From positions 32,681,351 to 32,745,350 of the forward strand of contig OZ029914.1 of assembly GCA_964023275.1 (NCBI GenBank): DNA of 64,000 nt, read 5' to 3'. The translations under genes were made by a program, and so were the position numbers. Below the pieces are notes generated by a model. The model was not told where the DNA came from. It worked only from the letters and a program-made list of their open reading frames with translations, and did not search any database. This document shows positions 19,343 to 63,605 of this stretch, in pieces (the stretch's first letter is position 1; each line of letters begins with the position of its first letter). Source of the stretch: Norana najaformis (lineage: Eukaryota > Annelida > Clitellata > Crassiclitellata > Hormogastridae).

Positions 19343-22300
19343 ATGGACAAGGATTCAAACGAACTTGGAATACTTTTCCAGCAGATTGTTTCTGACATTA
19401 AGGTAAGTTTTAACTCAGCTTGTATATATAAATCTTTTTGATTGATAAAGTCTTTAATTGGTTAAAGTAAAAATTTAACAAAATGTAAACCTATGCTGTG
19501 GCTAATTTTTCTTAACTTTTGACAGCACGATTGAGTGTTTAACTTGGTAAGTGTCTTGTTTAAATAGGGCAGGTGTTCTGGGTTGTGGAGTCAATGCCCT
19601 GTTAGTTATTGTAAATAGGTCATGGTAGAATCAGTGGTTTGAGACTGAGTCATTTCAGATACTTAGATTCTTGTTAAAGGAAACAGACACAGTGGCTTAT
19701 TACTGGATATTACTGGTTTATTATTACTAATGCAACTGTTAGTGATTTAAACGCAACATAATGCCATCACAGCAGGTTATTTCTAAGTTTCTGTTCTTTG
19801 TTAGTTTAAAATGGTTAAGAGTTAACGCTTGATGGGAAGCCTTAGTTTTTGACCAATTCTTGGTTGTTGAGGTCTGCCATGAAATTGATATTGTTCAAAC
19901 TTTATCTGTTTACCTGGATGTGTAACCAAATACTTGTTGGTGTGATGTTTATGTGATAGTTGATAAGCATCAGGTTCATCACCAGATTCTTGTGATTCTT
20001 TCTTATGTGTGCATGATACCACTTCATCACAATTCTCAAAAGTACTTGAAGAGAAATTTGTAAATAAATTGTATCAAATTAACTTTTTATTCAGTTTTGT
20101 AGGTATTATTCTAGAAACTTAAGCATTGCATTAAACATGTTACATCATAATGTAGTTTGACTAAACTTTAAAATTTCAACGTTCGTGTTTTCAAGCATCA
20201 TGGGAAGATTCGATCAGTTGTTGTGCTTAAGTGTTTTGAGTAGGATGTGCAGACAACTTCTCTTAAATATTCTGGTTAATGCTATAAACAATATTTAAGA
20301 TAATAGAAACTTTGATGACATGTTTGACATGAGTTCTGCATTGGGCCACAGACTGTTTGCTTGCTTAAGAACAGGTGGCTGACTGGTCACTGAATGACTT
20401 GACACAGGGATGGCTGTTCTAACACACCTCCTTGAGTGGCACATGTGTGACTGTTCTAAAACACCCCCTTGAGTGGCTGTGCTACATACTATGCTCTGTC
20501 TCTATGCTACATACCTGCTTTACATCCTACACTGCTGTTTGCCTGAGCTGAAATATCTGGTTTTCTCTGCTTGGTATGTGTTAGCTTAAAACATTGAATG
20601 GTGACCAAACACAGTACAGTAGAAGACAAGTAGTATTAACTTACCATTTTCAGTTGGCTTATCCACCCCAGGCTGCCTTTCTGTCTCAGCAGACTGGCTT
20701 TCAGCAATTGACCTGGCTATGGTTTGGTTTTGGTGTGCCATCTTTTGATGTTTTGTGCATTAGACGCCAGCATTTTGGAAGTTGCAAATTTTTAATTATT
20801 AGTTGTCTTCTTTTTTTGGATGGATTAATTTTCATGACTTATTCTGATGTTAAGCCCCCTAGAAAAGTGTGACTTACGAAATGACCTTGAAGTGGATTCG
20901 TTCATTCGTCCATCCATTCATCCATTCATTTATCCATCCATCCATCCATCCAGTCAGATCATTTATACAACACCTCTTCAGTTCAGAGACACTATTTAGA
21001 GACACTTCCAGCCCAAACTCCAGCAAAAGAGAACAACATTCAAGTGTTGGTGATAGGTAACTGTAGCATTTCAGACATTTCCAGAAGGACATGAAGATCC
21101 AAAGGTGGGCTGTTCCAGGTACATGGTCCTGCCACTGAAAAGGCATGATGATGCATTGTCAAAAAAACATGCAAAAGGAACAAAAAGATCAAAATCACAA
21201 AGAAGTCATACTTCACCGCATAAACCACATGTGTATAAGGTGAAGTATGAAATTCTGAAGGGCATTTTGAAGTGACTATTTGATTTATGGAGCATGTCCT
21301 TGTGTACTCCTATTAAACAGGAAAAGGCAAGCATAATATTAAGTCATCTTTTAAATGCTGTTATTAATATGTTGCCATCTCCTGAGTGTTGTGGAGGCTC
21401 TGACAGGTATTCAGAAAGAAAGGCTCATCACAATGAAGTTCCTGTTATTAACTGTGTGTGCTCACTCAGGTGTTGACATTTTGCTCTGCCACCTCCTCCT
21501 CCTCCTTTGCTTCTTCTCCTCCTCTTCTCTCCCTCCCTCTGCTTCTCCTACCTCTTGGCTTCTTGTGAGGCTTGTTGCGGCAGGGCAGGGTTTTCTGTGT
21601 TGGTGTATGATTTATGAACCATGTACTTAAAGGAGAAGTTAATTAATCTGACAAATAATAACCTTAGAATGTATACACAGCCTCAAGTGTAGGATTGAAA
21701 CAGGTCTAAAGGCAAATAGGATTGGCCAGTTGTGACTAGAGTAGGTCCAGGTCTAGAATAATTTTACTAGACCTCAAAGTATGAAATAAGCCAGGCTGAG
21801 GTTGGCCATTTGGACTGAGATTGGCCATTTGGGCTGAGGTTGGCCATTTGGGCTGAGGTTGGCCATTTGGACTGAGGTTGACCATTTGGGCTGAGGTTGG
21901 CCATTTGGGCTGATAATGGCCATTTGGGCTGAGAATGGCCATTTGGGCTGAGAATGGCCATTTGGGCTGATAATGGCCATTTGGGCTGAGAATGGCCATT
22001 TGGGCTGAGAATGGCCATTTGGACTGAGGTTGGCCATTTGGGCTGAGAATGGCCTGTTGGATGAACTAATTATACGTTTGGCAAACTGAAGTTTTGTTAA
22101 CTGGGTTGGTTTGAGTGGAGGGGTGTCTAAATAGTGGCTTTGTAAAAGCGTAACGTGATTCACATAGAAACAAGACATAGACGTCAAGCGTAGACAAAAC
22201 CAGCGAACAGCCTCTCAAGAAGAAACGCACAAATCCACCAACAGATGGTGACAAAAAACGGCTCAAAGAGAGCCAAAGCGGCAGAATGACTCAGAAGAAC

Positions 22301-28300: not shown

Positions 28301-31300
28301 TTGAGCCTTATGAAATACGAGGTCACCTGAGCCAGCTTGGCTTTCCATCTGACATTGGCAAGCACACAAAAGTAAAGCAACATGGAGCCTTATGAAATAC
28401 GAGGTCACCTGAGCCAGCTTGGCTTTCCGTCTGACATTGGCAAGCACACAAAAGTAAAGCAACATTGAGCTTTATGGAATACCAGGTCACCTGAGCCAGC
28501 TTGGCTTTCCATCTGACACTGGCAAGCACACAAAAGTAAAGCAACATGGAGCCTTATGAAATACGAGGTCACCTGAGCCAACTTGGCTTTCCCTCCCTTT
28601 GCAGTAGCAACACAAATTGGGAGGTTAAGAAGGTGTCCTGTCTGATGGATTGCTATGGTGTCATTTGCACTTCTGCCATGAAATCCTTCCTACCTTGGGA
28701 CTGTGCTTCTGAGCAGTTTTGATTAGAGGCATGCAAACCAGCGTGTTATCTAGAATGTTTGTTATCAGTGTCTGTTAATTGCAGATGTACTGTGGTAGCT
28801 TCGTCTAGTTTTCTTGATGCCTTCCAGAAGTTGGCAGACTGTGCATTGGGTACTCGAGGTTTGTAACCCATCTTAGTTTCCAAACTGCTGTGAACAGTTT
28901 CTTTGATCTGTGAAATATCATAGTTACTGTTGTTAAGCATCAGCGGTTTTAAACTGCTTAACACAGATATTTTATTGATGGTTTTTCATTTTCATGATTA
29001 ATTTGCATCGTTTATTTATTATGTAATCCATACTATAATATCCAACTTGATGTAAAATTGATCTCTGACAAGACATATGCGATACTGTATTTCTCTGTGA
29101 AAACATATGTGGAATGCTTATGCCTAAGCTTCCGTTCAAAGGCAGTATACACAGTTGTACTGAATGAAATGTAATGAATGAATGAAATAACTATATATTG
29201 ACTGAACTTCAACATCATATTAGTTAATACTATAACAGCAGTGAAAAATCTATATTACCAGTGATTGGTGTAGAATTCAAAAGTGTCCAAGGGACCTGCT
29301 GAGGCTGGATTTTGACCTGTTTTCAGATTGCATTTTGGTGACACTGCATTTGGCCGTTGCATTTGTACAACATGTGCAGAAACAGTTTTTTAGCACATCC
29401 ATTATAGAATTTAAAATTTTTTTATTTCTGTATTGTTTATTTTGCATATATTTATTTATGTGATTTATGAGAGTGTTAATTGCCAGTGTGATTAAGTAGA
29501 TGCATGTTGATTGTTTTTCATGACAGGTGCAACAAAAGATATTGGGTCGTCACTGACGAGACTTTGTATAAGGCATAAAGCAATTGAAAACCGATTGAAG
29601 AACTACACCATGTATGTGAAGTATAGCTGAAGCGAATTGTAGCTCGTATTTTTGCTTAAGCAGAAATCAATATTGAAGACCTTGACTTCTCAAACTTCTG
29701 GGTTTTCTGCATAAAATTTCCTCATTGATTTCTCAGATTCTAACTTTATAGTTAAACGTATCTTGACTCCTGATTTTATTCTTAGTATTTAATTCATGGG
29801 TTATTATAAAGAAGATCTGTTTAAGTTTTTGACCTGTTGTGTAGGCCTGTGACTTTTCTGATCACTGATCATTGATCATTGATCATTGTAGGTCACTAGT
29901 TGAATCATTAGTGGTACCTGTGCAAGATCGAATGGATGACTGGAAGAAGGCAGTTGTTCAGCTGGAAAAGGACCGTGCTAAAGGTAATTTCTGTGCTTTA
30001 CTATATGTAATTTTGTCAGGGGCAGCTTTCACGTGATACCAGTTTATGATACTTTGCTTGCGGAACACTGGAGCAGGTTTAAAATTACTGGGAGATACAG
30101 GAATACTGCTATGCATTAGAAATGCTATTATCATGCTATCATGAAGGTGGGGCTATAGAAGTCATTTGAGTCATTTTCTTATGTGCAGAGTACAAAAAAT
30201 GTCACAGTGAATTGAAGAAGGCTTCAGGAGAAACATGTAGACTGCGGAAAAAGGTCAACAAAGGTCAGAGTTCACTGAATAATTTTGTTTACTGATGACA
30301 GTCATAAAAGCTAATTATTATACAGATGACTGTTTTCGTCACAAGCATATTAGAACTAATTGATTGGATTGGGTTTTATATTAGATTCAGGCCTATATTC
30401 GGTTAATTATCAGCAAATTTCAGTGGTAATAAAATCCAAACAGTCAATTAGGAAGTCACTTAGTCAGTTCATTTATCATCAATTCATCTGTTCATCTGAG
30501 TAATTAATTAGATGAATGACATGGACAGAAACTGATTGATTGCTTGATTGATTGAATGATATTGAATGATTTTGACAGTCATAAAAGCTAATTATTATAC
30601 AGATGACTGTTTTCGTCACAAGCATATTAGAACTAATTGATTGGATTGGGTTTTATATTAGATTCAGGCCTATATTCGGTTAATTATCAGCAAATTTCAG
30701 TGGTAATAAAATCCAAACAGTCAATTAGGAAGTCACTTAGTCAGTTCATTTATCATCAATTCATCTGTTCATCTGAGTAATTAATTAGATGAATGACATG
30801 GACAGAAACTGATTGATTGCTTGATTGATTGAATGATATTCATATGTTCGCTCATTCTTACATTCGGTATCACTCACTGAACTTGCTCGATCGCTAACTC
30901 ACTCTTGCTCTCTCACACTCACCCTCTCATTCGCTCACTCTCTCACCCTCTCATTCTCATTCTGTCACTCTCACTCTCACTTGCTCACTCTCTCACTCAC
31001 TCACTCACTCACTCACTGACACACACACACACACGCACACAAACAAATGCACTCGCTTGCTCACTAGAGGCTATGATTTTAGTAAAATTGTAACATTAAT
31101 AATAAGCCATTGCTGTTATAATTTTACTGCTGTTTACATCCCTTACAGTACTGATGCTTTAATAGTTTGCATGGATAACTTTATGTTTTCGATTCTGCAA
31201 TATATAGGAAAGACAGAAGTTCGAGGCCATTTGGAAGAAGCCATTACAGAATTAAATTCCAAATTTGCTGCACTGGAGGCATCGGAAAAGAACTCAGTGA

Positions 31301-40570: not shown

Positions 40571-40765
40571 GTGCATCGTTTCCAGTCCACTTTTGAGCTG
40601 TCTTTACAACAGCCTCTGTTCATAGTTGCACGTAGCACAATAGCTTACAATTAGGTGACATTATAGTAGCAGTTACATTACATTTGCATTACAATATCTG
40701 TAATGTGACTTGGCTCACAATTGGATGGTAACACATATGGCACAGGAGGTGGACTGATTTTCAGA

Positions 40766-43700
40766 ATGCCGTATAAGTTTCTTGCTCGGATTTTATTCCT
40801 TTCTAGCTGCTTTACCCGACTAGGATTCCTTGTGCATCTTTGCCATGCATGGCGTTTTGATGCTGATGCTGAGGGAAAGAGCTTCCATGCACTTCGTCGG
40901 TTGGTTTTGCCTCATGATTGTTTTCCTGGACATATTGTTATATCAGTGCCATTCCTTGGGCAGAGGTTCAGTCTGACAGTTTTGGGTTCTGATTGGAAGC
41001 TACAAGGGTTCAATGCTACAAGGTATTTTACAGTTCTCGACAATGGCGATGTTGTTACAACCGCAGATTTGTCGTCACACATGAATCAAGATTTGGAGAT
41101 GACCATCTTCAGTCATTTTGGTTGGAACACGTGGAGAGAAGATTTGGTCGTTGACATTCGAAATGGTAGCCAACTGCTTCAGTTTTCACATCAAGTCTAC
41201 ACAGGACATGTGTCTGAAAATGTTCCACCACACAGCCTTGTTGAGGGACTGGAGAACCTTGGAGCTACAGTTGCCGCAGATGTTACTGTGTTTGTGTGGT
41301 ATGCCATTGTTTCAGGTCCTCGTGAACTGTTTGAGTTAAACCACGAGTATGGCTGTAGGCCGGTTCTTCGTACACTTGCTCCACTGGACTTTGAAAATGA
41401 GTCACAGTTTCTGGTTACAATCATGGCAAGTACAAGGAACTTTACAGAGGAACCAGCAATGGCACGAATCTGGATATCAGTTGACAACATCAATGATAAT
41501 GCTCCTCAGATGGAAAACCTGCTCTACTCTGGAAGAGTTCAAGATGGAAGTGCGGAAGGACAGGCTGTTGTTCAAGTGAGTGCATCAGATGCTGACAGAA
41601 GTCAAGTGGAATATAGAATGGAATACTGCAGTGATTTTGGCATAAGTTCTAGTAATGGTACAGTCTTCCTTCGAAAGAACAACAAAGAACTACATTCCAC
41701 CAGGTACAAACTGATTGTTTATGCTGTAGATGAAGGTGGTAAAAGAAGTGATTCGGCGGTAGTGTATGTCAATGTTGAAAGCAGACATCTGAGAAAATTC
41801 ATACCGCCACGAAATGATCGAACCAAGAGAGAAGTTCGACCACTGAGAGTGGTAGAAGTGGCAGAAACTAAGACTGGCGAGCTATTGGATTTGGAAAACA
41901 ATTATTACGAGGTGTTTGCCTTTAAGGAGCCTAGTCCGAAGCAAATGGAAATCAATCCAGTCACTGGATCTGTGCAACTACGTGCCGGAGAAAAGCTTGA
42001 CTTTGAGAGTCAGCCAGAGATAGAATTTACAATCCAGATCACTCGAGTGGATGGTCCACTTTGTAAGTCCTCTGGTTCTAATATTATTGGTCTCCTTTGC
42101 AGAGGTGATATAGGATGCTGTATGGTGAACCTGATGATGAAGTTGAATGATAAATACCTATATGCCTAGGTAGTGAGGTTGGTTGGGAAGGTATGACCTA
42201 ACAAAAAGCTTGGTTGCTGTAGTTATGTAAAATGTTGGTTTTTATACTGTTGCATCAGGGTTACGCTTTTGCCTAATACCATCGTAATTGTAATCATAAA
42301 TTTGTAAAGCGCAGCTTCGAGATAGTCTCATCAGAGGCGCTCCCATCCCATCCCAGAACTGGGGGATAATACGGTCTTCCATGTGACACGAGGACTGATT
42401 GCTCACCTTGTAACATGGAGTGTTTAGGTTCAAGACTTTCAAAGATAGTCATTACATAAGGACCATGAGCGTCAAAGTCTGTCAGTTGATGCTGTATTGT
42501 TGCATTGCATTGCATCATTATTTGCGTAATACAGAAATAATAACAACTATAATAATAACAACAACAACAACAATTTGCTCAGCATTTCCTCACTTGAAAT
42601 TGTTGGACTGCTTCATGGAGTTGAGCTTGGACTAATTCCTGACACTTCTGGTTCCTTGGACTTCACCCTTCAATTTTAACTTGCCTTTCTTTAGATGCTT
42701 CAGATGCCCCTGTTCAAAACTAATTAATTATGATTACTATATTCATGATCTTAAGTGCATCTTAAAATTTATAGTGCATTATTCAAGCTTTACTCTTCTA
42801 AGAAGGTTGTGGAATTATGAAGTCATTCATTTTCTAATTGATGTGCTCACTATCTTCTTGTATGATCAGTCAGTTCTGTGGAGAGATGTGACATTTTTAT
42901 TATGAAAGATGAGTTTTAAATTGATAATTTATAGTCGCTAATGGACATCTTCCTCTGAAGGACATCCTTGTTCATCCAAAAAATCCCTGTCCGATTGTTG
43001 GGTGTAATAGTTTTTCTTTTGCGTAAATCCTTCTAGATGGCACTCTGAGGGAGTCCTTTGTCGCACGCAATTGAGGCTGCAGATTTTCCCGGAGGCCTTT
43101 GCCCGCATAAGAAACTCATCAATTTTGGAATTACCATTTCCACAGCTGCCAGTCCTTGCTCTCCTGCTTGATCTCTCGTTGTCATCTCCTAGACCCACCG
43201 GCTTTCTATATTTTATTACCGCTGAAATTCTAGTTGCCATGACAACTGATGTTGCCAGATGCTTGGACAGGCTGTCAGAAATTCCTTTGCACCAGTCCTA
43301 GCGTGCATACAGAATGTGCTTTAAGACAAAAGAAGTCACGAGAAACTGTGACAGGAAAGAGAGGTGACCGTCTGCTTAAAGAGGCTCACTTGTGTTTCAC
43401 CATTTTTTTCTTCACGCAACTTGTCTTCATTCACCTGAGTAGATAAATAATTAAGTTGATGGGTGTGATAATAATCAGTTAACCGCAGGCAGCATCAGAA
43501 GTGTCAGGTTGGATTTGAACTGTGTATAATTTATAAGACCGGGAAGGGTGTTGTGCCCCATTGGTGTTAGTCGTTGGTGAATGGGTGGATGGCTGAGTGG
43601 AGAGGGGTTCACATATTCTTGCTTGCAGTGATAAAAAAGGCCGCTTCCATTTAGGCAGTTGGTTATATCACTTAGTGATTAAGTTATGTTGCAATTGTGT

Positions 43701-46700
43701 AGATTTTGACAATGTTCAATTGCTGAAATTATGAATGACAGTAATAAAAAGTAATAAGACATCCTCCATCCTCTGCAGTTTGGTGTTAAGATGCGCTTCT
43801 CAAGTTTCCTGTTACTTCTATTTTAAAATGCAGGGCATCTATAGAAGTTGTTTTTCGTCGGACCCAGTGATTTAAATTGGTGCCATCTGTCAAAACAGGC
43901 ATCTGCAGAATAATCTGCTGCATATCAGAATAAAATGCCAATACATCCAAGTTCGTTAACGTAGTTGTAAGTACAGATAGAGAAAGAGACACAGAAAAAG
44001 GCAGGGAAAGAAAAAGAGGAAAAAAGCAGAGATAAATAGAGATAAAGAGCAGAAAAAATGAGTGGAAAAAATGAATTAGCACGTCAGCAGAGGAGACAAG
44101 GAGGTAGGGTTTAAGGGAGGGAGGAGAATGCTACTGTAAATGCAGAACAGAGTTACCTAAGCTTTGCAAGAAATGACACACTGGCTGTGGAAAAATGCTG
44201 CACTGTAGTACCGTGTGCCAAGAAGGGGAAAACGATTTCATCATGCAGCCTGACCTTTCCAGGTTAGGTCGTTTCAAAAAGAGGAGATAAATGACAGGCT
44301 TAGAACCTGCTGTTCGTTACTTCTCCTGCCCTTATCTTTCTCCTCATCTGCTCTTTCTCTTTTCACTCCTTTGGCTTTTCCTTTTGGTTGTGCTGGTGAG
44401 TGGGAACGAAACTGCGGAAGATTCATTGATCCTGTAGAGGTTGATTCTAGTCAGCTAGAAACAGGAAGCCAATTAATTTGAGGAGGGCAGATGCAGTAAG
44501 GCAACAGAGTGTCGAAACGACGGCTCCAAATGACCGTCGCTCTGTGTCCAGCAATGAATCATTCTCTGCGTCTCATGTTCAGCTGTGAGTGTCTTGCATC
44601 ATGCTTCCATTTGTCTGTCCATCCACTTGTTCCATCCATGAATCCACCCACTGTTTCCTTTCATCCATCCTTACATCCATCAATTCGTGCGTCATCCTTG
44701 GATGACGTCATGTTTGCGCTTCGGCGTGTTGTTGCCGACCCGTTTGTATTTGAATTTTCATCGGATTTTCGTCAACTTCGGGCGTTTTTTGCGTTTTCTG
44801 TTGGATTATACCTACGCTATCTAACTTGTGGATTACTACGGCTTGTTTGTTCTTGGGTTAACGAGCGTAAGTTATCTTAATTTTGTTTGAATTAAGTTGA
44901 CGATGATGGCCGCTCCTTCCCCCACTCCTCCGACTCGTGTGTACGCTTCCGCTGAGCTACTTACCTACAACCAACCCGCTCTCACCATTCGACGTTCCTT
45001 ACGTAAGACTCTATTCAAGCTTCATCTATGGCGACCGGCATCTTCACGGCCTGGATTATTGTCTCCCTCCTGCCAATCTCAGCCTACACCTCTGGACTCT
45101 GCTCCGTCGCCTACCTCTCGGCTGCCCTCAGACCTGGGTGGCAGTGATGGACTTAGACTTGGGACACTGAACGCTCGGTCACTGAGAAATAAGGTTATGG
45201 AGATCGCTAACTCTATCTCTCAGCATAATCTGGATATACTCGTCGTCACGGAGTCTTGGCACTCATCTTCCTCTGATGTTCCGGTTCGACGCGCTGCTCC
45301 TCCGGGCTACCTATTCCTCGACGCTCCTCGCCCGGTTGATCCCTCACGTGATTCGCATCCTCTTGCGCAAAATCGTGGTGGCATTGTAGTCTACCATCGA
45401 GAACATTTTCGGGTCAAAAAGATCCCTCTTCCTCTCCCTGTTTCCACGTTCGAAGCATTATGCCTCTCCTCCGCCACGACTCGTGGTCCAGTCACCTTTC
45501 TTGCCCTCTACCGGCCAGGCTGCTCTCCTGTTACATCGACCTTCTTCTGGAAGTCTTCGCCACCTTCAACTGCCAGCTAATCATAACCGGAGACCTGAAC
45601 ATTCACCTCGAGAACCCAGATCTTCCAGAGTCTGTCCGCTTCAACTATCTGCTTTTCCAATTTGGCTTCATTCAGCATGTCGCTGAATCTACTCATGTGC
45701 TGGGAGGCTGGCTTGATGTCATTATCACCCGTGATGACTGTAACATCTCAGATGTTATAGTAGAACCTCCAGCTCTCTCAGATCATGGACTTCTTCTATA
45801 CAAGGTTCCTTTTCTATGTACCCAGCCAACATACGCGCTTCGGCTTGTACGTGGTTGGAACAACTTGGACCGTGAGGCATTCCGTGCTGGTCTGAACAAT
45901 AGTCCTCTCTGCGGAGACCTCTCCTCCCTCGCTGGTCGCTCGTCTGAAGAGCTCTTTGCTCTCTTTCACTCTTCAGTTCGCCTCCTCATCGATCACCTCC
46001 TTCCGCTTCGTCCGCAGCGGGCCCGTCGGAGACCGTTAGCACCTTGGTTTGACCGATCCTGCCGTACTTTACGTCGTGATGTCAGGCGGCACGAGCGAAG
46101 GTATCGACGAACACGTGATCCTGCCGATCATCTCGACTGGATCCACCATCTTCGCTTAATGCACCGGGAGTTTCGAGCCAAAGAAATGGCATACTGGGAG
46201 TCATTGATTGAGCGGGAGAGGAGCAATCCACGTCGGCTCTGGTCTTCGCTCTCCGGTGTCCTCGGCCGTCCTACCGCTTCTAACTCTCCGGCCCAGCCTC
46301 CGTTCACAGCGAACGACTACGTCGACTACATGCGCGGGAAGATCAACTCGATCCGCCAATCCACTGATGGTTCTCCTCCTCCTTCCTTTCCTCGTACGTC
46401 ATCTAGGCTTTCGTGCTGGAAGCCTCTGCCTTTGGACGTCCTTCGTCGGCTCCTGCTGGAGTCACCTGCTAAGTCCTGTGAACTGGACTTATTACCACCA
46501 TTTTTAATCAAGGATTTTATAAATGACTTAATTCCGTTCTTACACTTGCTATGTAATACCTCCCTGGGTCAGGATTCACTCCCGGCTACTCACAAACGTG
46601 CTGTAGTCTTTCCCTCTCTCAAGCGCCAGGGTCTTGACCCCAATGATATCTCTAACTACCGACTTATCTCTAACCTTTCCTTCCTCTCTAAGCTTCTTGA

Positions 46701-49700
46701 AAGATGTGTGTCCGTCCAACTGGTTGGCTACCTTGACTCTAACTCCCTCATGCCTCCTCTTCAATCCGGATTTAGCAAGTTCCACTCTACTGAATCACTT
46801 ATTACACGTCTCCTGGCTGACGTCTTTGGAGCTTTTGACCGTGGACATGTTACTCTTGCCCTCTATGATGTTAGTGCTGCTTGTTCTCCTTCCCATGGGT
46901 GTTGCTGTCCATCAGTATGCAGACGACACTCAGGCCTTCGTTCATGGCCCAGCGGAAGCGGCTTCCTCTCTGGTTGAGAGTATTCTTGACGCAACATCTT
47001 CCCTTCGTCTCTGGATGTCCTCTAATCGCCTCCGACTGAACTCTGCTAAGACCCAGTTCATCTGGCTTGGTGGTCGTGCTCAGCTGGCAAAGATTGATTC
47101 ATCATCCTTACGCCAGAGGTTTCCGGACATTCTATTCTATTCCGAAGTACGTGATCTTGGGGTTGTTCTGGACCGGGAACTCTCCTTGACCGATCATGTT
47201 AACAGTGTCTCCCGCTCATGCTTTTACCACCTTCGTCAGCTTCGTACCATCCGCCGCTCCCTCTCCTTTCATGCCGTTACTACCCTAATTCATGCCCTTA
47301 TCTGCACCAGGGTGGACTTTGGTAACGCTATCTTTGCTGGACTCTCACTTGCCAATATTTCCAAGCTTCAATCTGTTCTCAATGCTTCTGCCCGTCTTAT
47401 TGGAGGCGTCCCCAGGTATGGCCATATAACTTCCTTTATACGGGAAACTCTGCACTGGCTTCCCATTCAGCAGCATATCCAGTTCAAGATCCTAACGCTT
47501 ATTCGTAATTGTCTCGTTGGCTCTGCTCCATCATATCTTAGGGACTTCTGCATTTCGGTCTCCTTGGTTCCAGGCCGTAGCACTCTCCGGTCGGCCTCCC
47601 TCGGACTTCTGACTGTCCCTCGTATGCGCACTGCTACAGCGCAGTCTAGAAGCTTTGCCTATGTTGGACCCAATAGCTGGAATCGCCTTTCCCGAGAGTT
47701 CCGACTAGTATTCCTCAGTTTGTCTCTTCCGCAGTTTCGCAAGCGCCTGAAGTCTGTATGATTTGCCAGTGGTCTCACTGGTTTGGGTCGTGAGCGCTTC
47801 TGATGAGTCTATTCTTGAAGTGGCGCTTTCACACCGCAGATGTGTACATCTACTACACACCGCAAACGTGTGCATCTACTACACACCGCAAACGTGTACA
47901 TCTACTACACACCGCAAACGTGTACATCTACACACCGCCAATGTGTACATCCACTACACACGCAAATGTGTACATCTACTAGACACCGCAAATGTGTACA
48001 TCTACTACACACCGCAAATGTGTACATCCACTACACACCGCAAATGTGTACATCTACTACACACCGCAAATGTGTACATCTACTACACACCGCAAATGTG
48101 TACATCTACTACACACCGCAAATGTGTACATCTACTACACACCGCAAATGTGTACATCTACTACACCGCAAATGTGTTCCTCGACTACACACCGCAAATG
48201 TGTACATCTACTACACACCACAAACGTGTACATCTACTACACACCGCCAATGTGTACATCGACAACACACCGCAAATGTGTACATCTACTACACACCGCA
48301 AATGTGTACATCGACAACACACCGCAAATGTGTACATCTACTACACACCTCAAATGTGTACATCTACTACACACCGCCAATGTGTACATCCACTACACAC
48401 CGCAAATGTGTGCATCGACAACACACCGCAAATGTGTACATCTACTACACACCGCAAATGTGTACATCTACTACACATCGTAAATGTGTACATCTACTAC
48501 ACCGCAAATGTGTTCCTCGACTACACACCGCAAATGTGTACATCTACTACACACCACAAACGTGTACATCTACTACACACCGCCAATGTGTACATCCACT
48601 ACACATCGCAAATGTGTACATCTGCTACAAACCGCAAATGTGTACATCTACTACACACCGCAAATGTGTACATCTACTACACACGCAAGAGTGTACATCT
48701 ACTACACACCGCAAATGTGTACATCCACTACGCACCGCAAATGTGTACATCTACTACACACCGCAAATGTGTACATCTACTACACACCGCAAATGTGTAC
48801 ATCTACTACACACCACAAACGTGTACATCTACTACACACCGCAAACGTGTACATCTACTACACATGGCAAATGTGTACATCTACTACACACCGCAAATAT
48901 GTACATCTACCACACACCGCAAACGTGTACATCCACTACACACCGCAAATGTGTACATCTACTACACCGCAAATGTGTACATCTACTACACACCGCAAAT
49001 GTGTTCATCTACTACACACCGCAAATGTGTACATGTATTACACACTGCAAATGTGTACATCTACTACACACCGCAAATGTGTACATCTACTGCACCCGGC
49101 AAATGTGTACATCGACAACACACCGCAAATGTGTACATCTACTACACACCGCAAATGTGTACATCTACTACACACCTCAAATGTGTACATCCACTACACA
49201 CCGCAAATGTGTACATCCACTACACACCGCAAATGTGTACATCCACTACACACCGCAAATGTGTACATCTACTACACACCGCAAATGTGTACATCTACTA
49301 CACACCGCAAATGTGTACATCTACTACACACCGCAAATGTGTACATCTACTACACACCGCAAATGTGTACATCTACTACACACCGCAAATGTGTACATCG
49401 ACAACACACCGCAAATGTGTACATCGACAACACACCGCAAATGTGTACATCTACTACACACCGCAAATGTGTACATCTACTACACACCGCAAATGTGTAC
49501 ATCGACAACACACCGCAAATGTGTACATCTACTACACACCGCAAATGTGTACATCCACTACACACCGCAAATGTGTACATCTACTACACACCGCAAATGT
49601 GTACATCGACAACACACCGCAAATGTGTACATCTACTACACACCGCAAATGTGTACATCTACTACACACCGCAAATGTGTACATCCACTACACACCGCAA

Positions 49701-52700
49701 ATGTGTACATCCACTACACACCGCAAATGTGTACATCTACTACACACCGCAAATGTGTACATCTACTACACACCGCAAATGTGTACATCTACTACACACC
49801 GCAAATGTGTACATCCACTACACACCGCAAATGTGTACATCTACTAGACACCGCAAATGTGTACATCCACTAGACACCGCAATTGTGTACATCCACTACA
49901 CACCGCAAATGTGTACATCTACTACACACCGCAAATGTGTACATCTACTACACACCGCAAATGTGTACATCGACAACACACCGCAAATGTGTACATCTAC
50001 TACACTCCGCAAATGTGTACATCCACTGCACACCGCAAATGTGTACATCGACAACACACCGCAAATGTGTACATCTACTACACACCGCAAATGTGTACAT
50101 CGACAACACACCGCAAATGTGTACATCTACTACACACCTCAAATGTGTACATCTACTACACACCGCCAATGTGTACATCCACTACACACCGCAAATGTGT
50201 GCATCGACAACACACCGCAAATGTGTACATCTACTACACACCGCAAATGTGTACATCTACTACACATCGTAAATGTGTACATCTACTACACCGCAAATGT
50301 GTTCCTCGACTACACACCGCAAATGTGTACATCTACTACACACCACAAACGTGTACATCTACTACACACCGCCAATGTGTACATCCACTACACATCGCAA
50401 ATGTGTACATCTGCTACACACCGCAAATGTGTACATCTACTACACACCGCAAATGTGTACATCTACTACACACGCAAGAGTGTACATCTACTACACACCG
50501 CAAATGTGTACATCCACTACGCACCGCAAATGTGTACATCTACTACACACCGCAAATGTGTACATCTACTACACACCGCAAATGTGTACATCTACTACAC
50601 ACCGCAAACGTGTACATCTACTACACACCGCAAACGTGTACATCTACTACACATGGCAAATGTGTACATCTACTACACACCGCAAATATGTACATCTACC
50701 ACACACCGCAAACGTGTACATCCACTACACACCGCAAATGTGTACATCTACTACACCGCAAATGTGTACATCTACTACACACCGCAAATGTGTTCATCTA
50801 CTACACACCGCAAATGTGTACATGTATTACACACTGCAAATGTGTACATCTACTACACACCGCAAATGTGTACATCTACTGCACCCGGCAAATGTGTACA
50901 TTTACTACATTTGTAGTCTTTCCCTCTCTCAAGCGCCAGGGACTTGACCCCATTGATATCTCTAACTACCGACCTATCTCTACCCTTTCCTTCCTCTCTA
51001 AGCTTCTTGAAAGATGTGTGTCCGTCCAACTGGTCGACTACCTTGACTCTAACTCCCTCATGCCTCCTCTTCAGTCCGGATTTAGCAAGTTCCACTCTAC
51101 TGAATCACTTATTACACGTCTCCTGGCTGACGTCTTTGGAGCTTTTGACCGTGGACATGTTACTCTTCTTGCCCTCTATGATGTTAGTGCTGCTTTTGAC
51201 ACTGTGGATCACTCTATTCTTTTGGAGCGTCTAGAAAAATCTTTTGGCACCCTTCTTTGGTTTCAGTCATTCCTCTCAGACTGCTCTCATTCTGTTATCT
51301 TTGGGCCTACACGTTCCGCCTGGTCCGTTATACCTTTTGGCCTTCCTCAGGGTTCTGTTCTGGCCCCTCTCCTCTACATTCTGTACACTGCCGACCTGGC
51401 ACGGGTTCTCCTTCCCATGGGTGTTGCTGTCCATCAGTATGCAGGCGACACTCAGGCCTTCGTTCATGGCCCAGCGGAAGCGGCTTCCTCTCTGATTGAG
51501 AGTATTCTTGACGCAACATCTGCCCTTGGTCTCTGGATGTCCTCCAATCGCCTCCGACTGAACTCTGCTAAGACCCAGTTCATCTGGCTTAGTGGTCGTG
51601 CTCAGCTGGCAAAGATTGATTCATCATCCTTACGCCAGAGGTTTCCGGACATTCTATTCTGTTCCGAAGTACGTGATCTTGGGGTTGTTCTGGACCGGGA
51701 ACTCTCCTTGACCGATCATGTTAACAGTGTTTCCCACGCATGCTTTTACCACCTTCGTCAGCTTCGTACCATCCGCCGCTCCCTCTCCTTTCATGCCGTT
51801 ACTACTCTAATTCATGCCCTTATCTGCACCAGGGTGGACTTTGGTAACGCTATCTTTGCTGGACTCTCACTTGCCAATATTTCCAAGCTTCAATCTGTTC
51901 TCAATGCTTCTGCCCGTCTCATTGGAGGCGTCCCCAGGTATGGCCATATAACTTCCTTTATACGGGACACTCTACACTGGCTTCCCGTTCAGCAGCATAT
52001 CCAGTTCAAGATCCTAACGCTTATTCGTAATTGTCTCGTTGGCTCTGCTCCACCATATCTTAGGGACTTCTGCATTTCGGTCTCCTTGGTTCCAGGCCAT
52101 AGCACTCTCCGGTCGGCCTCCCTTGGACTTCTGACTGTCCCTCGTATGCGCACTGCTACAGCGCAGTCTAGAAGCTTTGCCTATGTTGGACCCAATAGCT
52201 GGAATCGCCTTTCCCGAGAGTTCCGACTAGTATTCCTCAGTTTGTCTCTTCCACAGTTTCGCAAGCGCCTGAAGTCTGTATGATTTGCCAGTGGTCTCAC
52301 TGGTTTGGGTCGTGAGCGCTTCTGATGAGTCTATTCTTGAAGTGGCGCTTTATAAATGTCAGATTGCAATTACAATTACAATCCATCCATCCCCTTCTTT
52401 GTCTGTCCATCCATCCATCCACTCCATATTTCCACCACCCTCCAATCCATCAACCTATCGACTTGTTTAAGCCATTTGCCCATTTTCTCATCTGGATCCA
52501 TTATCTGTCTTGTCTCCATTGCACAATGCTAACACAACCACTCATCCACTGATCCTTCATTGCTTCTATCTATTTTTCATTTGCCTATCAAGTTCAGCGG
52601 ATCCATTCATTCATCCACGCATATATCCAAGCAGCCAGATCATCTGTCCAGCAGTCCATTCAACCCTCGGTACATCCAGCTACCCATCCCAGCCACCATT

Positions 52701-55618
52701 CAACTTTTATGGTCGTCTTAGTATTCCTCAGACTGAATTTCAACATGTAGACTTTGCATCTTGTACAGCAGTCCTAATAACGTCTTATATCCATCGATTC
52801 ATGTCACCAGAAATATACTTTCTGCTGGTAGTAATTACACAACTGACCTAGTTGGAGGAACCAATTGACTGCACAAGAACAGAGGTAACTGACTATCAAC
52901 AGGATAGTGACCATAGTTGTAAATGACCCCACAGAGCAAAGAAACTGACCTACAAGTCTCTTCTAACCAAAAGGTTAATTACCTAGTGATAGGCTACTGA
53001 CCTGAAGGGTAGTTGACTATTGAGACCACAAGGGTAATCCACAAGCAAGACCCTAATGACTCCAATGAGGCTGGTGAGGACAAGGGTAATTGAGCACCAA
53101 GAGGTCACTGAATACAGAGTTTATGGACCAATGATTGTTTAAAAGCCTAGGGTGGTAGGCTGTGAGCGAGATGTTGAATGGATGTACTAAGTTTGATCTT
53201 AATGGAAGCTCTGCTGTTGGCAGAGAACACTAAATTACCGGGTAGAGTGCAGAATGCTTCAGGGAGAGGAAGTGATGGTGCTGTCTGATTCCCTCAGAGA
53301 GTCTGGAAGTACAAATTTAGCATTTAATATGAGTTGTTGTAATTGGTTGTTGCTGAGATTCTTTGCTTAGAGCTGTTGCACCTTGGTCAGTTAGGGACAA
53401 ACATACATCACTTTGAGATAGAACCTTCTTTCACTGCATTCTGACCTCAGATCGATAGACATCCATGCAAGTACTGCATGGTCTCAGTGTTACTTAATTT
53501 CAGTGTACTTTACGGTGCTTGCCAGCATCCTTTTAACAGCGCCAAGCAGCCACCCGTCTGTGATTGGCATGCTGATGGTGGTAGTGATATTGAAAATAGG
53601 ATCATTCATTCATACATATCACTCATTCATTTGTTCATTTATTCATTCATTCATTATTCATCATTCTTTTGACAATGATAATGGGGAAAATGATAATGAT
53701 GTTGATGGTGATGTTGAAAAATAGGATAATTCATTCTTCCAATCTGCTATGATCGAATGACTACTCTACATCTAGCATATCTCATAATGTAATAACAATG
53801 ACATTTCTACTTTTTGATGAATTTATCTTAATCTGATCAAAGAACCGTGCACTGATCTGCCTGTCACCCTGTGATCATATCTGATACAATATTTCTGGAG
53901 GAAGAACCAAAAAATGACTTGTTTATAGACTGCTGCTTTTCATGCTTCTGTTTTCGTCGACAAAATGGCAGTCAATCTGTTTCCACTTGCCATCGACTTT
54001 GGTGATAATCTGGTCAGCTTGACATGTGACAGCAGAAATCGTGAAATTAAAATTTCGTTCTGCTGTTCTGTGACTTTTTTCAGTGCCATCTCCCTTTAAC
54101 GATAGTGCATGCTTCGCTTGTATCTCTTTTATAATTGGATGTGTCCTTTCTTGAGTGCCTGTCGTCTAAGAGTAACGGAGGTCAGCAGTAACCCTGTGCA
54201 TTTCCTGCAATGCACTGGTTCCCTAGCAATCTGTATATTGCAGTGGACTATCAGTGCGTGTGACAGATGACGATGTGCTCGGACTGACGTGACTTACAGC
54301 AGTGATTTCAGCTGTGCGTGGCTCCGATAACACGAATGCTTGATCGCTTTGATAGCAAGATATCAGCCGAATGGCTGCTTCGAGAATCATTTGAACTCTT
54401 CTTTGTCTCCAATAAATAAATTCACGCCATGAATACGGTGAAATTTCTCATTTATGGGCATAGCTAGCATTCCAATGCTTTCGAGTTTTGGTAAACATCT
54501 TCAGTTTGTAGTTTAAAAGATGCCAGCATTTTATCCACCAGTAGGTGAGCATTTTATTCTAATCCCCGCATACATCATGCACAGCTTAAGCATGCATAGA
54601 TGCATTCATCCATCCATTAAGGCATGTGCACAAACAAAGTTACTGCACCTTTAAGCGCTATGCTACTCAACTCTTGAAGAAGACATCTTGTGTGAGTTGC
54701 ATCTAATCAACAGAACTCAGCCAACTCTTTCTCTATACATACTCTACATCTGACTCTGTGCATACTCACATACATCTATACACACATCTACTCTATGCAT
54801 ACAGTCTGACCAAACTCTTGTATTAGTGTGAAACATTGATTTTTGGTGGAATTGTTTAGAGATACCTGCCTGTCTGCACCGACCGACATTGAAACAGAAT
54901 TGTTTTCAACAGTAGATAGAACAAAGGCATAGAAGGCTTATTAAGGCACCAGAAAGAGTTGTCACAGGTTACTAGGCTAATGTTCCAGAAAGATGGTTTA
55001 CAATTTAATTGTAACCAAACGTTTCTGCAGGAAACTTTTAAATTATCACAAGGCTAATGCTGCAATTCTGTTACTTCTCAACAGTGGTGTTGTGTAACAT
55101 GATACAAGCGTCACCTGGGAATGTACTTCATGACTGCACTTCTAGGTTAACAAAATACTTTCACATAGGTTGATTGCCATTCTTTAGTGCAGTGGCTTCA
55201 TGCAAGCTGTAATTTAGTAATGATATCAATTATAATGATTACAATGTCAATAATGCAAATGCCAGTTCTGCATGACCCTTAGCCTTAGCAAAGAAAGACT
55301 TCATGAGTCTGATACTGCAAATTTTATGTTCTGTGAATGACTTTTGCTTTGGTTTTGATAGTTTTGTGACATTATAGGACTCTGTTTAATTTACAATTAT
55401 AGTAAATACTATATAAAGAACTGTTGTTTCAGATCTTGAAGAGCAGCAAGTAAAAATTCGATTGCTAGATGTCAATGATGAAATTCCGGCATTTAAGAAT
55501 GTCCCGCAGCCATTCCTGGCGACAGTTGCTGCAAATGCTGCTATGGGAACCAGCATCTACCAGCTGATGGCTCAGGATGCCGACCAGGGTGGCGCTGTGC
55601 AGTACATTCTTGAGTCAG
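40766..55618 (+). CDS. CadN: CadN-type neural cadherin, 5' part (continues beyond window)
   Basis: Two coding exons: 40766-42062 (from ATG, ending T|GTAAGT) and 55433-55618 (after TTTCAG, ending in phase 1 at G|GTTGGT); their phases join. Together they encode about 494 residues; fly CadN has about 3100, so most exons lie to the right. Residues 1-29 form a hydrophobic signal peptide. The LVLPHDCFPG and YFTVLDNGDVVTTADL segments are the N-terminal region typical of invertebrate CadN. Cadherin-repeat landmarks follow: PLDFENESQ, VDNINDNAPQ (about 240), ASDADRS, then a furin-like site RTKR (about 352) ahead of EVRPLRVVEV, KLDFESQ, and in exon 2 LLDVNDEIPAF and AQDADQ. DxNDx and DxD motifs bind calcium. 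Family role: homophilic adhesion through catenins in neurons. An in-frame TTG-initiated extension exists upstream, but the ATG directly precedes the signal peptide. Confidence 0.85.
42279..42380 (-). mobile_element. 3' terminal fragment of a CR1/L2-type LINE
   Basis: On the minus strand: CGTATTATCCCCCAGTTC, then GGGAGCGCCTCTGATGAGAC, AAGCTGCGCTTTACAAAT and a GATTACAATTACGATGG tail. This matches the 3' UTR of the LINE at 52.3 kb (GAGCGCTTCTGATGAGTC, AAGTGGCGCTTTATAAATG, ATTACAATTACAATCC). It is only about 100 bp. It lies in the CadN intron. Confidence 0.8.
42535..42575 (+). repeat. (AAT/AAC)n microsatellite
   Basis: AATAATAACAACTATAATAA followed by (CAA)n; short simple repeat in the CadN intron. 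Confidence 0.8.
42576..44520. other. CadN intron segment without recognised genes
   Basis: About 1.9 kb of unique-looking intron sequence. It includes an A/G-rich tract around 43975-44060 (AGAGAAAGAGACACAG type). The short frames here have no family signature. Confidence 0.4.
44903..45550 (+). pseudogene. LINE ORF2 N-terminal part: AP-like endonuclease, frameshifted
   Basis: The frame from the ATG to about 45540 encodes a proline/serine-rich leader of about 90 residues and then the first half of the endonuclease (LRLGTLNARSLRNKVMEIAN, DILVVTESWHS, NRGGIVVYHRE, LALYRPG). The frame closes at 45580. The second half of the fold (ITGDLNIHL onward) continues in the frame that is open from 45460, so a short indel lies near 45545. 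In intact elements this enzyme nicks target DNA for target-primed reverse transcription. Confidence 0.85.
45540..46885 (+). pseudogene. LINE ORF2 middle part: endonuclease C-half and RT fingers
   Basis: Encodes LLEVFATFNCQLIITGDLNI, WLDVIITRDD, SDHGLLLYKV (catalytic SDH), a basic linker with repeated RR/HERRYRRTRDP, then RT fingers KRAVVFPSLKRQG and NYRLISNLSFLSKLLERC up to VTLALYDVSAA. It ends where the palm deletion shifts the frame. Confidence 0.88.
46880..47761 (+). pseudogene. LINE ORF2 C-terminal part: RT YADD to C-terminus
   Basis: Downstream of the 209-base deletion the frame reads VLLPMGVAVHQYADDTQAFV with an intact YADD catalytic box, then RT thumb-like helices and the C-terminal domain (FYHLRQLRTIRRS, LQSVLNASARLIGG, ILTLIRNCLVGSAPSYLRDF, SFAYVGPNSWNRLSREFR) to a stop at 47761. 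Near-identical to 51405-52283 in copy 2. Confidence 0.9.
48301..49110 (+). repeat. Higher-order block A inside the minisatellite
   Basis: A run of variant units (CGACAA, CACACCTC, CGCCAAT, CACATCGT, GTGTTCCTCGA, CACGCAAGAG, CACATGGC, CATGTATTAC, GCACCCGGC) in a unique order. The same order recurs at 50090-50899, offset by 1789 bases, with about two visible changes. This proves a block duplication rather than unit-by-unit homogenisation. Confidence 0.9.
50090..50899 (+). repeat. Higher-order block B inside the minisatellite
   Basis: Second copy of the variant-unit series described at 48301-49110. It runs to within about 12 bases of LINE copy 2, so the duplication endpoint and the LINE junction almost coincide. 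Confidence 0.9.
50912..52374 (+). mobile_element. 5'-truncated second copy of the same LINE
   Basis: Starts TGTAGTCTTTCCCTCTC, equivalent to about 46601 in copy 1, and runs to the true 3' end (AAGTGGCGCTTTATAAATG then ATTGCAATTACAATTACAAT). Only scattered substitutions separate it from copy 1, so the two are recent relatives. It keeps the 209 bases of RT palm missing in copy 1 (FDTVDHSILLERL, FGLPQGSVLAPLLYILYTAD) but has YAGD in place of the catalytic YADD, so it too is probably inactive. Confidence 0.93.
50920..52283 (+). pseudogene. LINE reverse transcriptase, 5'-truncated, YADD changed to YAGD
   Basis: A continuous frame from VVFPSLKRQGLDPIDISNYR to the C-terminus. RT landmarks: SNYRPISTLSFLSKLLERC (fingers), VSAAFDTVDHSILL (motif A aspartate present), GLPQGSVLAPLLY (motif B) and VHQYAGDTQAF (motif C, second aspartate replaced by glycine). 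Loss of that aspartate should abolish polymerisation. The frame is open upstream through the whole 26 bp array, forming an 808-codon chimeric frame from 49857 that is unlikely to be a gene. Confidence 0.88.
52375..52470 (+). repeat. (CCAT)n microsatellite after LINE copy 2
   Basis: CATCCATCC/CTTTGTCTGTCCATCCATCC-type tract directly after the LINE tail; more diffuse CCAT words continue to about 52690. Confidence 0.7.
52700..55432. other. 3' part of the CadN intron, no genes
   Basis: About 2.7 kb before the second CadN exon. It contains ATTCATTC simple repeats (53600-53660) and a GAT(A/G)ATG-rich stretch (53680-53720). No coding or RNA feature was recognised. Confidence 0.45.
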
Positions 55619-55659
55619 GTTGGTCGTTTAGCAAGTGCTGTATTAGTTGGTCAGTAATG

Positions 55660-55700
55660 TCCATCTGTCCGTCTGTCCGTCCATCCATCCATCCATCTAT
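55660..55700 (+). repeat. (CCGT/CCAT)n microsatellite at the CadN exon 2 donor side
   Basis: GTCCATCTGTCCGTCTGTCC followed by (CATC)n, about 40 bases into the intron after the exon ending at 55618. Confidence 0.8.
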
Positions 55701-57315
55701 CATGTGGCCTGTAGAAATGGTTACTGTGAAACCACAAGCATGAAGTGCTGCTATTTGGCAATTTCATCTTGTGTGAGAGAAATGAGGCGACTTTGATTTT
55801 ACAAGAAGGTAAAGTCATCTGATTTGTATAGCGGTCGAGGATGAGTTTAATATCATCCTTGCTGAATCACTGCTTCGGTCTGCATATGTATCTGTTTCGA
55901 TAGATTGCCTGTTGTCTGTGTTATTTCCTTATGTGTATGCCTTTCTTTCCATCTTTTCCTTGCTGTTTCTTTTAGAGTGAGTTCTAGTTTTGCTGTTTGT
56001 CAGTCTTTCTTCTGTGCAAGTCCTTCTGTGTCTGTGCGTGCCTTTGGTACTTTTATTTTCTCTCTTGTTTATTGTAAATGTCTTTGTTATTTTATCTGTA
56101 TTTTGTATAATGCTCTTTGTCAGTCTCTGCTTCTTTCCAAAGCAGAGTCATTTGGTAGTTGTTCTGGATCTCACCATTCAGTGTATGAAAGTATGTCCTC
56201 TTGTAATAATCCATATGTAATAATCATCCTTAGCGATAAAGATACATCAGGTCACGTAATCAGGAAATACAGAATTTGATTTATGCTGTTGCTAAGAGGA
56301 TCAGCCACCCTTACCTCATTCATTCATTTATCACTGGCTTTGGACGACACCAAGTAATAGCCATTCCAGCCCCATGAGACAAAGCACTATTCCTCAGCCC
56401 CTCTTGCTCTTAATTCTGAATGTGGCATCTTCATCTGTTGCCAGAGTCACAGGAGAAAGATCCGTCATTTTCGGTTCTGTAGAAAGATGTTGTGTGGATT
56501 AGCTGATATCTTATGGCGACAGCCATTATCTGGCTGTTCAGGTCACAGCAATGTATACTTTCTAGTGTGCACTCTTGTCCTTTAGTCATTTCGGGTCCTA
56601 ATTGATGTCTGTCTTGGGTCAGTCAAAGGAGTCCGAAAAATGGCTCTGCAGAGTTGTATGTCTTAGGATATTTTGTGGGATTTGGCAGCAGAGCAGAAAG
56701 GAACTTTGCTTAGCATATAAATGCACACGTCATTTAGCGGCCTTTTTGGCAGATGTATTTATAGTGAGGTCAACTGTTTTGCCTCTGTAATGATCCCTAG
56801 AGGCCTAGGTGCCTTCAGATTCCTTTCTGGTCTGCTTGTATGATATGCTGAGAAGTCAGTTCTCCTGTTCTAACTTCAAGACTTTAAGACTTTGATAAAA
56901 TGTCAGATAGCTTTAGATTTTCCAACAGGAAGAACTAGGTTGATTGACATCTATCATGTACACGTGGGTTTGCCTCTGATTCTCTCTCCTATCATCATTT
57001 CGCACATTTCATTGTTATGAGCATATATATTAGTTCAGCTTTATTTTTTGTTTACCCATCTTTAATTCGACGTGGATCTTGAACTCCAAATAAGTAAATG
57101 TCTATAATTATATAACATTTATTGCATGTTTAATCATGACATTACACGTTTAATATCTTAGCACATGACTGTTTTTTGGTAACACTCTGGGCCTTTTTCC
57201 TTCTGCTTACACCGTATTGATCTGTTTACCTATCTAATGTGCCTTGTTGTCTTTATATGTTGCCAAACTAACTAAAGCTCCATGCTAATTTACTGCTGTA
57301 AGTTCATGCTTTCAG

Positions 57316-57641
57316 TTGGCTTTGCAGACTGGCTGAATGACTGTTTTTGGTTGGCTTTGCAGACTGCCTGAATGACTGTTCTTGGTTGGCTTTGCAGACT
57401 GGCTGAATGACTGTTTTTGGTTGGCTTTGCAGACTGGCTGAATGTTTTTGGTTTGCTTTGCAGACTGGCTGAAGGACTGTTTTTGGTTGGCTTTGCAGAC
57501 TGGCTGAATGACTGTTTTTGATTGGCTTTGCAGACTGGCTGAATGACTGTTCTTGGTTGGCTTTGCAGACTGGCTGAAGGACTGTTCTTGGTTGGCTTTG
57601 CAGACTGGCTGAATGACTGTTCTTGGTTGGCATGCAGCTAG
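57316..57641 (+). repeat. 35 bp minisatellite, about 9 units
   Basis: TTGGCTTTGCAGACTGGCTG followed by AATGACTGTTTTTGG repeats with a period of 35 bases (for example at 57316 and 57351). Variants are AAGGACTG for AATGACTG, TTCTTGG for TTTTTGG, and one unit shortened by loss of GACTG. The minus-strand frame of KANQEQSF/SASLQSQP-type peptide is an artefact of the array. Confidence 0.94.
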
Positions 57642-61736: not shown

Positions 61737-61945
61737 CATGTCAGGTTGTAATCCAGAGATTTCTACAGTGCCCAGTGAAAGCCACTTCATGGTGACCAGC
61801 TTATTCAAAGGCGCTCAGTCAAAACAAAATCGATGGGCAAAAGTGTTTGGTTCCATGTCAAGACCCAAGAGTCAAGCAGAGAGACAGCATAGCAGCTACG
61901 GTGAGTGATGTTTGGGATTGGAGGAGAAAGAGGGATAAGAGGAAG
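61737..61945 (-). repeat. ATTACG-tailed repeat, long minus-strand copy
   Basis: On + : GTAATCCAGAGATTTCTACA, GCCACTTCATGGTGACCAGC, TTATTCAAAGGCGCTCAGTC, AAAACAAAATCGATGGGCAA, GAGAGACAGCATAGCAGCTA, GTGAGTGATGTTTGGGATTG. It spans nearly the full family consensus as seen at 27577 (+) and 8432 (-). The AGGTTGTAATCCAGAGA motif at its left edge is duplicated just upstream (61722). Confidence 0.7.
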
Positions 61946-63504
61946 AAGGGAAGTCAAAGCTGTCTGTCATCCAAGAAAACCTTCAGAATTCTAGAAACAA
62001 ATACTTATTACTCATATTTAAAAATTAATTGCTGTCGCTAACATCATACAGACTGACAACCCATTTTAGTCACTTATCATTTCTAGATTTGTCAAAAAAA
62101 AACTGTTGTACATAATTTGTCTTCTCCAGCATGGCTTATTATAGATTAATCTATTTTGCTTGGGTAATTGTTCCCTTAAAGCTTTGCTGTAAAACTGATG
62201 TTAATCAGCATAAACTCTTGTAAGTCATCTATGGTTTGAACTCCCTGGAACTAATTTGGACTAGTTTGAACTGAAGTAGTTTGAGCTGACCAGTTGAGCT
62301 GACCTACATATTTTCATAATTGACAGTGTGATTCAGGCACCATCCACCACAGGTGCAGACCCTGGCCTACTAGTATTCCAACAGCCGTGGTCAGGATTGA
62401 AGTGATGGTGCTTTTATGGTAGAAGGGGGGGACCTAGTATACGCGCTGCGTGATGACAGGCAACCGTCAAGGTGGATGCGGGACTTGTTGACGCCAGAAA
62501 GTAGGCCACTTTTGTTCATTTCCCGCCGAGGCTGTTATGATGTGGAATGATTTGCCTGTCTCCAGTTATGCAATACATGTAATTGGTAACTCCAGTGAGA
62601 GATCTGCTATTAAACAAGTGATTGTGGTTTCGTATTAGTCAAAATGAGGCTTGTGAATTTGGTGGAAAATTACCCAGTTGTTTTACTGTGTTAAAGTTTG
62701 TAGTGGTGAAAGTCACCTGTGAGTCCACAGTCTGTATCATTCATGCAATAGAATGTTGCTACTGGAAAAGTAGTTTTTGTGAACCTTTTATTTGGCTGTG
62801 AATTGCTTATTACAACGTGAGTCAAACCATTTAAATAGCTAGATAAGCTTCTTGAACGTAATTTGTATTCCCATAAGTTCGTTGTCTGTGTCTTGATTTT
62901 CAAAAGCATTAAACTATCAATCATCAAATTCTCTTCCAGAAACTGAAAGCCCTCCTGAAAGTATTCCTCCTAGCTCTTTAATTGAATTGTCAGTTTTCTT
63001 AGTGATCACACTTAGGCTGTTCTAGTAGACTGAAGTTATCAAACTGGCTGCCATGCACTCAAAGTACCAGGATCTCATATGAGACTAGTTATAATTATAT
63101 TTGATGGGTATCAATTTTTTATTCTGCTTGTATGCAGAAGACAACTGCTTGTGAAATATGCCGATGACTTAACCTTTCTAAACCCTGAAGTCTGTTTCTG
63201 CCACTCTATAATTATCATGTTCTACTTTGTGTTCTTAAAACTGCAGTTGATAATAATGGCTGTGGACAGGTCGTAAACTTAACATTAACCCTAACAGACC
63301 ACATTATTTTGAGGCCTACCAGTACTTATCTCAGAGCTTGGCAACATTTTTCAAGCGATCATTTGTTCAGGAATCCTAAAAGCACAGTCCACTTATGCTG
63401 GATTCCTCGCATCTCATGATTCTGCATGCAGTAATCATAAAGCATCTCTTCAAAGGGCATAAAGTTGGCAAACCTGGGAAAATCTACACTACTGAAGAGT
63501 TTTT

Positions 63505-63605
63505 CCTATCAGTTTGGTTTTGACTGAGCACCTGTGAATAAACAGGTCCCCATGACGTGACTTTCACTGGGTACTGTAGAAATCTCGAGATTACGATTAC
63601 GATAA
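63505..63605 (+). repeat. ATTACG-tailed repeat, 3' half
   Basis: GTTTGGTTTTGACTGAGCAC, CTGTGAATAAACAGGTCCCC, TGACTTTCACTGGGTACTGT, AGAAATCTCGAG and an ATTACGATTACGAT tail. It matches the 3' halves of the 18417 and 27577 copies. Confidence 0.65.

Follow-up and report, generated by a model that had tools for sequence, protein, structure and literature searches.

A minisatellite between two near-identical LINE segments in the annelid Norana najaformis: the seam of a probable internal duplication

In the human genome, at least 7,276 tandem arrays, i.e., 23% of all minisatellites and satellites, are linked to transposable elements, and the mechanisms that have been postulated account for only 6% of the arrays derived from such elements (PMC3389668). 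In chicken, the HinfI satellite is related to part of a CR1 long interspersed nuclear element (LINE) (PMC9659126). Minisatellites have been proposed to be born by slippage between short repeats on either side (Haber and Louis, 1998; Taylor and Breden, 2000; both via PMC6947457 and PMC3389668), and the repair of breaks yields small tandem duplications, sometimes with additional mutation (PMC8355091). The start of a minisatellite is less well understood than its growth. Here, a locus of the annelid Norana najaformis is described in which a minisatellite with a 26 bp unit separates two near-identical LINE segments. The locus lies in a window of 64,000 nucleotides, which is the whole stretch of DNA that was analysed (assembly GCA_964023275.1, contig OZ029914.1, positions 32,681,351-32,745,350) and which represents one haplotype. 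With a probability of roughly 60%, the structure goes back to a single LINE insertion, followed by an internal tandem duplication, nucleation of the array at the junction and later expansion. None of the titles and abstract openings covered by a partial literature survey describes a duplicated LINE with a tandem array where the copies join.

The original prediction, made from the sequence letters, was that an array is sandwiched between two LINE copies, and this arrangement is real (Table 1). Only copy 1 is preceded by the 5′ part of the element and only copy 2 is followed by a 3′ end and tail; the two copies are thus best read as a single LINE that carries an internal direct repeat. A single 5′ end and a single 3′ end surround the whole structure, as is characteristic of an internal tandem duplication. 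The 10-mer TGTAGTCTTT, with which copy 2 begins, has exact matches in the window only at 46602 and 50912. Between the copies, Tandem Repeats Finder (TRF) reports a repeat with a period of 26, 119.1 copies, 91% matches and a score of 5166. With 119 units of 26 bp arranged head to tail, the array is a minisatellite in the usual sense (units of about 10-60 bp), and 42 of the 119 units in the unit map equal the consensus.

Table 1. Coordinates of the LINE, the minisatellite and their flanks in the window.
Feature	Position	Strand	Basis or remark
CATCC-rich 5′ outer flank of LINE	44601..44706	.	12 CATCC/TCCAT motifs in 106 bp
LINE 5′ part, single-copy: endonuclease-like stretch (45146-45553), then coding in another frame	44707..46601	+	Pfam
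Copy 1 of duplicated LINE segment	46602..47829	+	alignment to copy 2
26 bp minisatellite, consensus CACACCGCAAATGTGTACATCTACTA, 119 units	47830..50909	+	TRF, unit map
Array block B, left copy	48266..49112	+	845/847 identical to 50055-50901
Array block B, right copy	50055..50901	+	ends 8 bases before array end
Copy 2 of duplicated LINE segment	50912..52351	+	translation, alignment, Pfam RVT_1
LINE's only 3′ end, with ATTACAATTACA tail to about 52375	52352..52375	+	sequence
CATCC-rich 3′ outer flank of LINE	52376..52475	.	12 motifs in 100 bp

The original prediction had named the element a CR1/L2-type LINE, which is kept here as a putative assignment. Copy 2 contains a reverse transcriptase domain (Pfam RVT_1, E 1.5e-23, 84.1 bits, cut-off 29.6), and its frame is open as far as a stop ending at 52283. 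In the 5′ part, a frame-broken stretch gives a weak match to the endonuclease family Exo_endo_phos (E 1.2e-4, 22.4 bits), as does a longer open reading frame (ORF) (E 3.6e-4, 20.8 bits), both under the curated cut-off of 24.5. The two frames of this part overlap between 45352 and 45580, and no Pfam family matched the stretch 45550-46881. The 5′ end of the LINE was judged by eye to lie at about 44705, within a range of about 44700-44710 that does not fix the exact end. The palindrome TGACGTCA, which we take to be a CRE-like site, is found at 44703-44710, i.e., at this apparent 5′ end, and twice more in the window (7412 and 24570). An open frame of 811 codons (49848-52283) runs from the array into the reverse transcriptase of copy 2; it is probably meaningless and crosses the array because none of the frames of the common 26 bp unit contains a stop.

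Both seams of the array were largely predicted correctly. Copy 1 ends with GCGCTTT (47823-47829) exactly where the array starts. Copy 2 was said to begin where the array stops, and its first bases indeed stand at 50912, but two T residues (50910-50911) that fit neither the unit nor the LINE intervene. This abutment had been read as a sign of common origin; since any junction gives an exact boundary, it is by itself no evidence. At 46601/46602, the point in copy 1 that matches the start of copy 2, the LINE continues without any unit, and at 52351/52352 copy 2 runs from GCGCTTT straight into the LINE's own 3′ end, again without a unit. Because the LINE is uninterrupted at both points, the array is specific to the seam. 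This bears on the proposal that the 26 bp array arose in an intact LINE at GCGCTTT/ATAAAT and that a later duplication put a second reverse transcriptase segment after it. Minisatellites inside transposable elements are common (PMC3389668), but after an ordinary tandem duplication, both copies should be followed by an array. As none follows copy 2, a second loss would be needed, which makes this order of events most improbable. At the seam between array and copy 2, an inverted repeat, ACTACA-TT-TGTAGT, was also considered; it is not significant, as repeats of the same kind occur at 49 of the 1634 background positions and the inspection covered four seams.

The alignment of the two copies, which the original prediction had suggested as a check, shows them to be near-identical, with 928/947 and 274/284 identities in two BLAST blocks and 26 substitutions over 1228 aligned positions. 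In copy 1, 209 bp are missing between 46882 and 46883, a gap that had gone unmentioned before, and so are 3 bp near 46853; both stretches are kept in copy 2. In the frame of copy 2, the substitutions are distributed over codon positions 1, 2 and 3 as 7:8:11, and one of them turns the YADD of copy 1 into YAGD in copy 2, with the loss of one Asp. Ten of the 26 are silent, compared to 7.9 ± 2.3 expected without selection when random changes are drawn with the same transition share (P of at least 10 = 0.24). The 11 third-position changes are likewise unexceptional (P of at least 11 = 0.21), and the chance of creating no stop is 0.52. There is thus no silent excess of the kind left by changes made in active source elements, in a comparison of low power. 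From these counts, the differences look neutral and fit decay after duplication. The pattern fits two separate copies of one source equally well, and therefore argues only against two different active sources, and does so weakly.

Reverse transcriptases can jump from one template to another, and a template jump within one insertion would produce the same order of parts in a single event. The enzyme would copy the RNA from its 3′ end to TGTAGTC, jump to a second LINE RNA at GCGCTTT, add extra bases at the jump and copy on to the 5′ end, after which the array would grow from the extra bases. Non-templated bases at junctions have been described for R1 and R2 (PMC2718515). However, this requires an acceptor RNA that stops about 23 bases short of the element's 3′ end and lacks a tail, and the silent excess expected of two different active sources is missing, although one source for both RNAs is possible. 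On balance, a jump is quite unlikely.

Copy 2 may also be a separate insertion, namely a 5′-truncated LINE from the same active source that landed beside copy 1 or beside an array at its 3′ end. The original prediction had offered such an insertion next to the array as its second route. Truncation at the 5′ end is common in LINEs, two LINEs that favour simple-repeat targets could end up at one place, and the neutral pattern of the 26 differences suits two copies of one source. Nevertheless, copy 1 would have to lose its last 23-24 bases and tail, and the LINE's last bases have no exact copy between copies 1 and 2: ATAAATGTCAG and CAGATTGCAATTACA match exactly only at 52352 and 52360 in the window, respectively. 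The array does contain the short motif ATTACA at two places (about 49037 and 50826), within a unit variant. Moreover, both outer flanks are rich in CATCC/TCCAT motifs, a feature that the original prediction did not mention, as though a single tract had been split by one cut; with two insertions, the likeness of the flank of copy 2 to that of copy 1 would be a coincidence. For comparison, the mean in 1047 overlapping background windows is 0.23 motifs; the next 100 and 125 bp beyond the 3′ flank hold 3 and 5 more. At least six motifs occur in five of the background windows, which cluster at two places (about 20830-21040 and 55598-55756), and CATCC-dense sequence is therefore rare in the window but not unique. 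Lastly, inspection by eye revealed no target-site repeat shared by copy 2 and the end of the array. A target-site duplication of the whole structure is not resolvable because the tract is CATCC-rich. Separate insertions are accordingly regarded as unlikely.

The history that we favour starts with a single LINE inserting into a CATCC-rich tract, probably within a cadherin intron. Some 1.44 kb, beginning at TGTAGTC in the reverse transcriptase and reaching GCGCTTT close to the 3′ end, would then have been duplicated in tandem at the DNA level, by break repair or re-replication. Extra bases may have been left at the join, where the first 26 bp units would arise, and slippage, unequal exchange or gene conversion could have expanded these to 119. 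Both LINE copies would subsequently have decayed neutrally, with copy 1 also losing its 209 bp. Birth of the array at or after the duplication is preferred because the units are confined to the seam and the last bases of copy 1 are not found between the copies. The original suggestion of a common origin for array and duplication is retained as the most economical reading, whereas both concrete routes proposed for it are less economical.

Within the array, an 847 bp block is present twice with 845 identities (block B in Table 1), which the original prediction had not noted. Since the blocks diverge by 0.24% and the LINE copies by 2.1%, the block duplication appears younger than the LINE duplication, with the caution that there are two differences only and that conversion may have erased others. 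It would represent a later step in the growth of the array. The zone between the blocks is near-uniform, with 32 of 36 units belonging to three types versus 6/17, 10/33 and 11/33 in the other zones. Growing minisatellites usually show a uniform middle and variant-rich ends. Arrays of 3 kb and near-identical LINE copies are also typical places of misassembly, and the block pair could be an assembly echo, so that a misjoin that links two LINE loci, or an array resolved incorrectly, has to be weighed. The outer flanks are alike, however, and copy 2 is no echo of copy 1, as 26 substitutions and gaps of 209 bp and 3 bp separate them. An artefact is thus very unlikely.

The source of the unit was sought in the LINE and around it. 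The consensus unit was aligned locally to the 5′ part of the LINE, to copy 2 including the tail, to the tail by itself and to the two flanks; in these 10 comparisons, no score exceeded what shuffled sequences give (p 0.31-1.0). A profile of the allowed unit variants was uninformative, as it fitted 1119 places with at most six misfits. The exact unit was not found in the viral contigs searched, nor a 23-base part of it in the prokaryote genomes searched, which is expected for an animal sequence. A search of viral contigs for encoded relatives gave two stretches that matched a pattern, none of them confirmed, which is equally uninformative here. A resemblance does exist just before the point in copy 1 that corresponds to the start of copy 2. 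The 10-mer CACAAACGTG lies there on the + strand (46591-46600), one base before that point, and is otherwise found only in four array units; AACGTG occurs in 12 of the 119. In a gapped scan of the seam 46570-46613 against 3514 overlapping windows, two AAACGTG variants were equalled or beaten by 1.4% and 2.3%. This seam shares at least three 8-mers with the array, as do 34 of 2897 background windows; window 52331-52372 shares none. Because several seams and variants were examined, the resemblance is suggestive and is treated as a lead, not a result.

CTACT and CACAAACGTG both adjoin TGTAGTC at the seam. Possibly the seam itself bore the minisatellite, in that templated repair synthesis repeatedly copied about 26 bp beside TGTAGTC, so that duplication and array came from one repair event. 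We regard this specific route as quite unlikely; if it is true, the locus is a readable record of a minisatellite's birth.

Several points weigh against the favoured history. At the seam, the common unit is equalled or beaten by 9.4% of the windows and the reverse strand by 21-23%. The top scores of the unit scan lie away from the seam, near 54750, 42857 and other places in the flanks, and a full-unit match within the LINE at 46305 (19/26) is at chance level, which leaves no convincing source of the unit. With other CATCC-rich places in the window, two such flanks could coincide. Two near-identical LINEs inserted separately and then decayed would be expected to show the same neutral pattern as the two copies. 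Finally, the comparison of LINE and array rests on this single locus.

As to the surroundings, an ORF at 40709-42169, upstream of the LINE, encodes a cadherin domain (Pfam Cadherin, E 2.7e-17) and has matches to 139 distinct PDB sequences at E ≤0.001, with CELSR1 the best among the matches listed (60). A candidate splice donor, GTAAGT, is found at 42063. On this upstream side, the sequence agrees with the original prediction of a cadherin intron (putatively of a neural cadherin). Downstream, ten + strand ORFs chosen for their length had no match in Pfam at E 0.01. Scanning for short motifs of cadherins yielded four rows, none of them useful. Judged from its position downstream of the cadherin exon, the LINE is probably in an intron. 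No function is indicated for the locus.

The window contains other repeats as well. TRF reports a 277 bp unit present twice with 100% matches at 30296-30840, in which BLAST finds two identical 268 bp copies; this pair arose either by tandem duplication in the very recent past or as an echo of the assembly. Three other minisatellites (TRF) lie at 21794-22054 (19 bp × 13.7), 28268-28592 (82 bp × 4.0) and 57315-57631 (35 bp × 9.2). Short dispersed repeats in both orientations (8432-8540, 18422-18574, 27580-27794, 61746-61948 and 63491-63603; BLAST) are 76-87% identical among the matches listed and are possibly a short interspersed nuclear element or a small DNA transposon. An inverted pair of 130 bp repeats (16016-16145 and 16639-16768; BLAST), 80% identical, possibly marks the ends of a DNA transposon.

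Altogether, the locus is a case of ordinary repeat evolution, i.e., a new instance of known processes, with an unusually clear order of parts. An array at a duplication seam bounds its own age, as it can be no older than the duplication if it was born there. The locus also gives a place to seek the pre-array state in relatives; otherwise it is one more repeat, probably intronic. Like the minisatellites derived from transposable elements as described in PMC3389668 and PMC9659126, it is a tandem array tied to a retroelement and expanded in place, but here the unit does not clearly match the element, and the array is placed where the two copies of an internally duplicated segment meet. As in the slippage model, an initial short duplication would be followed by growth, whereas the short flanking repeats of that model cannot be shown at a locus known only in its array-bearing state. 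The direct duplication resembles those reported for break repair (PMC8355091), but these are small, compared to about 1.44 kb here with a 3 kb array at the join. Extra bases at element junctions are shared with R1 and R2 (PMC2718515); unlike the target junctions of those elements, the seam in Norana najaformis lies between two parts of a LINE.

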